Shown here: piece by piece, positions 34,821 to 35,246 of the stretch
How positions within the stretch are numbered: the first letter of the stretch is position 1
How the letters are laid out: every line of letters begins with the position of its first letter
NCBI GenBank assembly: GCA_949987565.1
Contig: OX465102.1
Location: 12,106,763-12,170,762 of the forward strand
Length of the DNA: 64,000 nucleotides
Reading direction: 5' to 3'
From: Luidia sarsii
Lineage: Eukaryota > Echinodermata > Asteroidea > Paxillosida > Luidiidae
Notes under the pieces: model-generated
Database searches by the model: none
What the model saw: only the letters and a program-made list of their open reading frames with translations
Told to the model about the DNA's origin: nothing
Made by a program: the position numbers and the translations under genes

Positions 34821-35246
34821 GCCAATTTCATAGAGCCGCTAAAGCGCAAAAATGTGCTCATGCTCAAAAACTCATGAGCCACAGGATCCCCTTGCCAACC
34901 CAAACTTCACTTTTATTTTACGCTAAATAAAGAAGATCTAAAATTTAGTGGGCCTGACGTTTCGATCCTAGCAGGACCTTTCTCAAAGGTCTGACTCTGC
35001 CTTTGAGAAAGGTCCTGCTAGGATCGAAACGTCAGGCCCACTAAATTTTAGATTTACTTTTTGGTAATTTTAGTCAGTAAGCAGTTTGCAACATTTTGTA
35101 TTATCACCCTAAATAAAGAAGAGTGCAGTACAAGTCATAAGCAATGGACATTACATTGCAGGGCAGATTGTAATCCTTGCTTACACGACGAAGACTTTTC
35201 CTGCTTAGCAGATTTTCACGCTTAAGCGGCTTTATGGAATTGGGCC
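34821..35246. mobile_element. MITE with CCAATTTCATAGAGCCGCT termini, unit 1 copy
   Basis: GCCAATTTCATAGAGCCGCT at the left and AGCGGCTTTATGGAATTGGGC at the right are inverted. In units 2-5 the MITE is about 245 bp (36,722-36,964, 38,340-38,581, 39,957-40,199, 41,575-41,817). Here the hairpin insertion enlarges it. Lone copies occur at 46.2-46.6 kb and partly at 12.4 kb. Confidence 0.75.
34936..35108 (+). mobile_element. 173-bp perfect-hairpin insertion with 13-bp target duplication
   Basis: CTAAATAAAGAAG at 34,923-34,935 is duplicated at 35,109-35,121. The insert opens with a 54-bp arm (34,936-34,989) that is perfectly complementary to 35,000-35,053 around a 10-base loop TCTGACTCTG. The right arm carries CCTGCTAGGATCGAAACGTC and AGGCCC. 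The tail 35,054-35,108 has AGTCAGTAAGCAGTTTGCAA. Units 2-5 read straight through with one CTAAATAAA, the empty site. This defines the exact boundaries of the GTCAGGCC-family element. Confidence 0.92.

Follow-up and report, generated by a model that had tools for sequence, protein, structure and literature searches.

A 173-bp hairpin insert in a Luidia sarsii tandem array, read as a possible minimal insertion of a Penelope-like element

The stretch of Luidia sarsii DNA analysed here, referred to as the window, comprises 64,000 bp and contains a tandem array, relics of Penelope-like elements (PLEs) and a family of short hairpin sequences (Table 1). The array is made of units of ~1617 bp and spans roughly 34.6 to 43.0 kb. 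Its first unit is interrupted by a hairpin insert between direct repeats, designated c1, and this insert is the main subject of the present analysis.

The insert and its empty sites

The anatomy of c1 agrees with the preliminary description of the locus: 173 bp in length, the insert consists of two 54-bp arms that are perfect reverse complements of each other (54/54 pairs), a 10-nt loop between them and a 55-bp tail on one side. With loops of 3-20 nt allowed, no perfect hairpin in the window is longer. The runner-up measures 18 bp and lies within a simple-repeat tract, and five first-order Markov sequences used as controls yielded hairpins of 9-11 bp. As RNA, c1 folds into the same structure with an energy of -107.5 kcal/mol (z -20.7), a value equalled by 0/200 shuffles.

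The flanks of the insert bear an exact duplication. The 13-mer CTAAATAAAGAAG occurs only at 34923-34935 and 35109-35121 when both strands of the window are searched. In its longest form, however, the direct repeat reaches 14 bp (CTAAATAAAGAAGA, at 34923-34936 and 35109-35122), since the base that opens the left arm recurs immediately after the right repeat copy. The duplication, originally given as 13 bp, is therefore 13 or 14 bp long, and the left junction is ambiguous by one base. Outside listed tandem repeats, flanking duplications of at least 8 bp at a spacing of 173 bp are found at 7 of 53,537 positions, of which two belong to the c1 site, four overlap one another near 1177-1180 and one lies near 9495. 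In three flank-alignment tests, controls scored as high as c1 in 4/3000, 1/150 and 1/400 cases.

Units 2-5 carry uninterrupted paralogous counterparts of the c1 site, as first noted, which are near-identical to the site in unit 1 but not identical to it. Compared with CTAAATAAAGAAG in unit 1, they show one substitution and a 1-base gap, with one further substitution in unit 4. Once the insert is removed, an alignment of 454 columns puts the identity of units 1 and 2 at 95.8%; units 3-5 match unit 1 at 92-93%. A PLE insertion of the inverted pseudo-LTR type is expected to show a target duplication that can be set against an empty site, and c1 presents both, with an exact duplication of 13-14 bp. 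The insert had also been called young, a claim with which the perfect arms and duplication are in keeping. There are zero mismatches over 67 paired positions of c1, against a divergence of 4.2% between units 1 and 2; if the insert were as old as the split of these two units, zero mismatches would arise with a chance of ~6%, which makes the dating evidence weak.

Each of the five units also holds a decayed GIY-YIG stretch that matches a Penelope-like protein in pieces, at 31-48% identity, and the array was therefore probably built from a PLE fragment. The Pfam GIY-YIG model gave no match in the one unit ORF tested against it. Inverted pairs at 34569-34662 and 35470-35568 recur in later units (GGCTGGATAGCTCAGATGG..GAGTTCACGTCCC). 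This stretch is presumably tRNA-like and perhaps a SINE head; Rfam returned no gathering-score match at the two positions.

Table 1. Positions of the insert, its relatives, the empty sites and the PLE remains within the window
Feature	Position	Strand	Remarks
Insert c1	34936-35108		173 bp, between direct repeats, within unit 1 of the tandem array
Left target-duplication copy	34923..34935		CTAAATAAAGAAG; 14 bp with base 34936
Left arm of c1	34936..34989	-	inverted copy of the right arm (putative inverted pseudo-LTR piece); starts at the putative inner start point
Loop of c1	34990..34999		TCTGACTCTG, 10 nt
Right arm of c1	35000..35053	+	PLE sense orientation; carries the GAAACGTCAGGCC motif
One-sided tail of c1	35054..35108	+	55 bp; conserved core GTCAGTAAGCAGTTTGCAAC
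Right target-duplication copy	35109..35121		to 35122 if 14 bp
Copy c2	21254..21421	+	both arms, tail ~58 bp, decayed target duplication TCAAGATCAGACAT / TCAATATAGACAT
Copy c3	14894..15030	+	both arms, related tail core
Copy c4	26020..26190	-	arms and tail degraded
Copy c7	57217..57305	+	right arm alone
Copy c8	61246..61277	+	right-arm motif downstream of a PLE ORF, in like orientation
Empty site, unit 2	36826..36839		CTAAATAAAAAAAG
Empty site, unit 3	38443..38456		CTAAATAAAAAAAG
Empty site, unit 4	40060..40073		TTAAATAAAAAAAG (TTAAAT there)
Empty site, unit 5	41678..41691		CTAAATAAAAAAAG
Decayed GIY-YIG stretches, Penelope-like	36049-36409, 37758-38118, 39375-39735, 40993-41353, 42622-42976		one per array unit (five)
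Penelope-like ORF relic	59277..60281	+	reverse transcriptase end and GIY-YIG endonuclease; 5' side cut off
PLE fragment	60585-61055	-	own GIY-YIG part; interrupts the 3' part of the plus-strand relic
Canonical minimal type I hammerhead motif	60410-60377	-	CTGATGA..GAAACGTC; 3' of the GIY-YIG fragment 60585-61055

Relatives of the hairpin and relics of Penelope-like elements

Three copies supplied the right arm and tail sequences for a family profile, which returned 27 rows in the window. Fifteen of these, at 11 separate places that include the three seed copies, have E values up to 1e-3. Both arms are clean in three copies, namely c1 (34936), c2 (21254) and c3 (14894), and all three show a head-to-head inverted repeat with a tail on a single side. 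c1 and c2 carry the tail core GTCAGTRAGCAGTTTGCAAC unchanged, and c3 and c6 (13109) each differ from it at 3 positions; a match appeared in 0/100 shuffles. In c7 and c8 the right arm is present, and a left arm was not found. Degraded partial copies are clustered at 12500-18600 (~13.0, 13.3, 14.9, 16.9, 18.1 and 18.5 kb), and by eye c3 and c5 seemingly have in common a 10-bp deletion in the right arm. An exact search with 29 bases gave 0 matches in viral contigs and 0 in prokaryote contigs, as expected for an animal repeat.

The left arms of c1 and c2 end at the same family point, which is where the right-side tail begins. The corresponding end in c3 lies 29 nt before the tail core (26 nt in c1, 30 nt in c2) and 15 nt past TCAGGCC (22 nt in c1, 23 nt in c2), so that it represents the same family point only if c3 lost 7-8 nt within its arms; the family alignment sets it in a different column, with the gap elsewhere. 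The left-arm end of c3 is probably the point seen in c1 and c2. The true family boundaries claimed at the outset thus hold on the left for c1 and c2, probably also for c3, and on the right for c1 and c2 only. The 10-base loop, by contrast, is not a family feature as had been proposed, since the apex varies: c2 has almost no loop and the interior of c3 is changed.

In c1-c3, the two arms of a copy resemble each other more than they resemble the arms of other copies. Scored against its own right arm and against the best of four other right arms, the left arm reaches 60 and 50 in c1, 46 and 31 in c2, and 30 and 26 in c3, a margin that is wide in c1 and c2 and small in c3. The left arm of c4 obtains its best score against the right arm of another copy.

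Duplication tests covered c1-c3, as the arm ends of c4-c8 are unclear or their left arm was not found. In c2, TCAAGATCAGACAT lies to the left of the insert and TCAATATAGACAT 58 bp past the right arm, with the comparison anchored at the left-arm end. In this anchored test controls did as well in 2/400 cases (with up to 3 bases of slack) and in 1/150 in its first version; an unanchored local alignment was not significant, with 1121/3000 controls as good. No target duplication was found in c3 in three tests (controls as good in 440/3000, 92/150 and 254/400), and copies of this kind had been named in the preliminary description as an adverse outcome. In c4, c5, c7 and c8, inspected by eye only, a clear duplication was not seen.

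Among the best 120 of 438 protein matches to the Penelope-like ORF relic (59277-60281), the top three are unnamed, and the highest-ranking named ones are PLE proteins of the echinoderms Lytechinus, Strongylocentrotus and Apostichopus. Taken alone, these matches suggest animal and perhaps echinoderm DNA, although PLEs can move between species. Copy c8 lies 3' of this GIY-YIG ORF on the plus strand, in the sense orientation, and its sequence leaves the family directly after GAAAC. The two are separated by the minus-strand PLE fragment, and in both relics a GAAAC motif comes after the endonuclease in the sense orientation. By eye, the loop of c1 resembles TTGACACTCTG (~61236), which immediately precedes, on the 5' side, the c8 motif downstream of that relic. 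A full-length PLE of the hairpin's family was not found in the window. A CATCAG hexamer array of 2.7 kb and 450 copies (53863-56563) is located a few kb from the relics.

The core of a hammerhead ribozyme reads CTGANGA and precedes helix II. A strict pattern scan located a single such site in the window, at 60410-60377 on the minus strand and outside the hairpin element. The cleavage-side motif GAAAC..GTC, in the form GAAACGTC, is carried by each arm of c1, and c2, c3, c4 and c7 have it in the right arm. A canonical hammerhead in the c1 arms was rejected, as CTTTGAGA stands in place of the core. Rfam returned 14 matches on the c1 insert, with hammerhead families absent, but it also misses the motif at 60410-60377 and is therefore no sensitive hammerhead test here. 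The best of the 14 are microRNA families, which may have been drawn by the long hairpin; all fall below gathering scores, and a microRNA identity of c1 was rejected. A tRNA-derived SINE would be expected to have a tRNA-like promoter head; the only gathering-score Rfam match in the window is a tRNA (26868-26940, minus strand, 38.5 bits), outside the c1 insert and ~0.7 kb from c4. The histone 3' UTR stem-loop model matches weakly at 60325-60369 (minus strand, 20.9 bits against a gathering score of 34), probably by chance or through a PLE 3' hairpin.

A possible route to the insert

Taken together, c1 looks like a minimal PLE insertion that is recent and very small. The one-sided tail, the 13-14 bp duplication, the PLE relics and the published anatomy of such elements support retrotransposition of the Penelope type, and the PLE identity of the insert is highly probable. 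The early suggestion of such an origin, rather than cut-and-paste movement, is supported by these features and by the occurrence of the right-arm motif 3' of a GIY-YIG ORF. Specifically, c1 may represent a PLE product that has no coding part, in which an inverted pseudo-LTR piece is placed head to head with a direct piece and its tail.

A mechanism can be proposed from the observed anatomy, the empty sites, the arm end that c1 has in common with c2 and the PLE relic. A GIY-YIG endonuclease would make a staggered cut in AT-rich DNA, leaving 3' overhangs of 13-14 nt, and each 3' end would then prime reverse transcription inside pseudo-LTR RNA, the polymerase being presumably supplied by a PLE. 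The bottom-strand primer would start at an outer site (..TATTATCACC) and give rise to the tail and right arm, and the top-strand primer would start at an inner site 55 nt upstream (..TTTTAGAT) and give rise to the left arm. Both cDNAs would end after a short distance, close to CCTTTGAGAAAGG, which is self-complementary in part, and would then be joined at these ends. Extension of the 13-14 nt overhangs on both sides would produce the observed duplication. Since both products derive from the same stretch, two RNA templates or two repeat units would be needed. In c1, the left target flank agrees at 5/7 bases with the RNA immediately beyond the inner start point, as do 1.6% of random pairs; such similarity was dropped as a general rule, with 3/7 in c2 and 2/7 in c3.

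The proposal as a whole, a minimal PLE product formed by two-sided priming and joining, is finely balanced between right and wrong. The two-sided priming step taken by itself falls slightly short of that balance, and the view of c1 as a snapshot of two-sided target-primed reverse transcription, with fixed start points 55 nt apart and joined cDNAs, is more tentative again. In its favour are the preference for the own arm in c1-c3, the decayed duplication of c2 and the 58-bp tail of that copy, which is similar to that of c1, as well as the head-to-head PLE insertions of PMC3846280 and the in vitro activity of a lizard PLE on both target strands (PMC11167929). Against it, the PLE link comes from a single relic copy, c8; c3 has an arm end 7-8 nt closer to TCAGGCC than c1 and c2 and no duplication that was found; the left arm of c4 fits another copy best; and the c1 arms are without CTGANGA.

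The strongest competitor, which is nonetheless rather unlikely, is a fixed, non-autonomous hairpin element of SINE-like character, whose arms, loop and tail would be copied whole by PLE enzymes. Constant ends come naturally to such a unit, and both the presence of two arms and a related tail in three copies and the 11 arm-tail profile places in 64 kb are consistent with it. However, the differing apices and the own-arm agreement of c1-c3 would call for several masters, an argument drawn from three copies, and c7 and c8 display a right arm for which no left arm was found.

A little less probable still is a route of the same PLE origin in which the left arm arose by fold-back self-priming, the cDNA snapping back at the CCTTTGAGAAAGG palindrome and copying its own right arm. 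The perfect arms, short loop and self-complementary apex of c1 would fit this process, and self-priming is how PLE inverted repeats are interpreted in PMC3846280. Yet fold-back copying should continue through the tail, whereas the left arm ends 55 bp short, and it does so at the same family point in c1, c2 and probably c3. Two-sided priming is favoured over fold-back in this respect, as it accounts for a left-arm end at the very point from which the tail continues on the right.

Cut-and-paste movement of a foldback or MITE-type DNA transposon would suit the long, perfect inverted arms but is very improbable, given that a 55-bp tail separates the right arm from the duplication, so that inverted repeats do not occupy both termini, that the duplication measures 13-14 bp and that a PLE ORF is likewise followed by the motif. 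The idea of an assembly or gene-conversion artefact, prompted by the setting of the site among array units that are 92-99% alike in the stretches compared, is hardly credible in view of dispersed relatives of the insert elsewhere in the window and of the exact flanking duplication that marks an insertion.

Comparison with known elements

A general account of the pseudo-LTRs of PLEs, of their inverted forms and of 3' extensions is given in PMC8969392. In PMC3846280, PLE copies are reported with head-to-head pseudo-LTRs, the inverted one being shorter than the direct one, together with a 31-bp tail on one pseudo-LTR, duplications of 8-10 bp in some copies and none in others, and palindromic insertion junctions. 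Pen2a_Av and its kin from Adineta vaga thus resemble c1 in their unequal head-to-head pseudo-LTRs, their short one-sided tail, the duplication of some copies and the palindromic junctions. The dimensions differ, since c1 has a 55-bp tail and a 13-14 bp duplication, and the inverted pseudo-LTR copies described from Adineta vaga carry an ORF, a partial ORF or captured DNA, whereas c1 consists of 54-bp arms only. Solo pseudo-LTRs are mentioned in the same source as well, without duplications.

How PLEs complete their insertion is not established, and the later steps are described as yet to be validated in a 2024 in vitro study (PMC11167929). Minimal inserts that come with a duplication and empty paralogous sites display their two ends and the junction to the base, and make the choice between fold-back and two-sided priming testable. 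If true, the two-sided reading would account for the lesser length of inverted PLE pseudo-LTRs compared with direct ones, and for a tail that is confined to one side and can be missing. Two-sided priming as a source of PLE inverted repeats was not found in the literature searched, a body that largely excludes subscription papers.

In twin priming of L1, a second primer, from the opposite side of the cut, initiates on the element RNA, which results in an inverted 5' part. The two halves of a twin-primed L1 are different stretches, whereas the two products proposed for c1 derive from a single stretch and make up a palindrome. Metazoan retrozymes (PMC7229834, PMC7761336) are, like c1, short, non-coding retroelements with a hammerhead-type motif and with target duplications that exceed those of plant retrozymes. 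They are tandemly repeated and possess a functional type I hammerhead, in contrast to the single hairpin and degenerate core of c1.

In vitro, the purified Poseidon PLE from the lizard Anolis carolinensis (PAc) cleaves the two strands of its target and extends both, prefers AT-rich DNA and begins reverse transcription at two internal sites that bound a 'tail'; a joined two-sided product is not reported in the portion of PMC11167929 cited here. The likeness to c1 lies in the two start points, putative in c1, bounding a tail downstream of a hammerhead-type motif and in the AT-rich target. PAc possesses a working, protein-assisted hammerhead (PMC11167929), whereas the core of c1 reads CTTTGAGA instead of CTGANGA. 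The PAc start points are situated 111-118 nt into the ORF (PMC11167929), which by our own arithmetic is 85-92 nt past the ribozyme cut, and counted from the equivalent place in c1, the putative inner and outer points are 20 and 75 nt further on.
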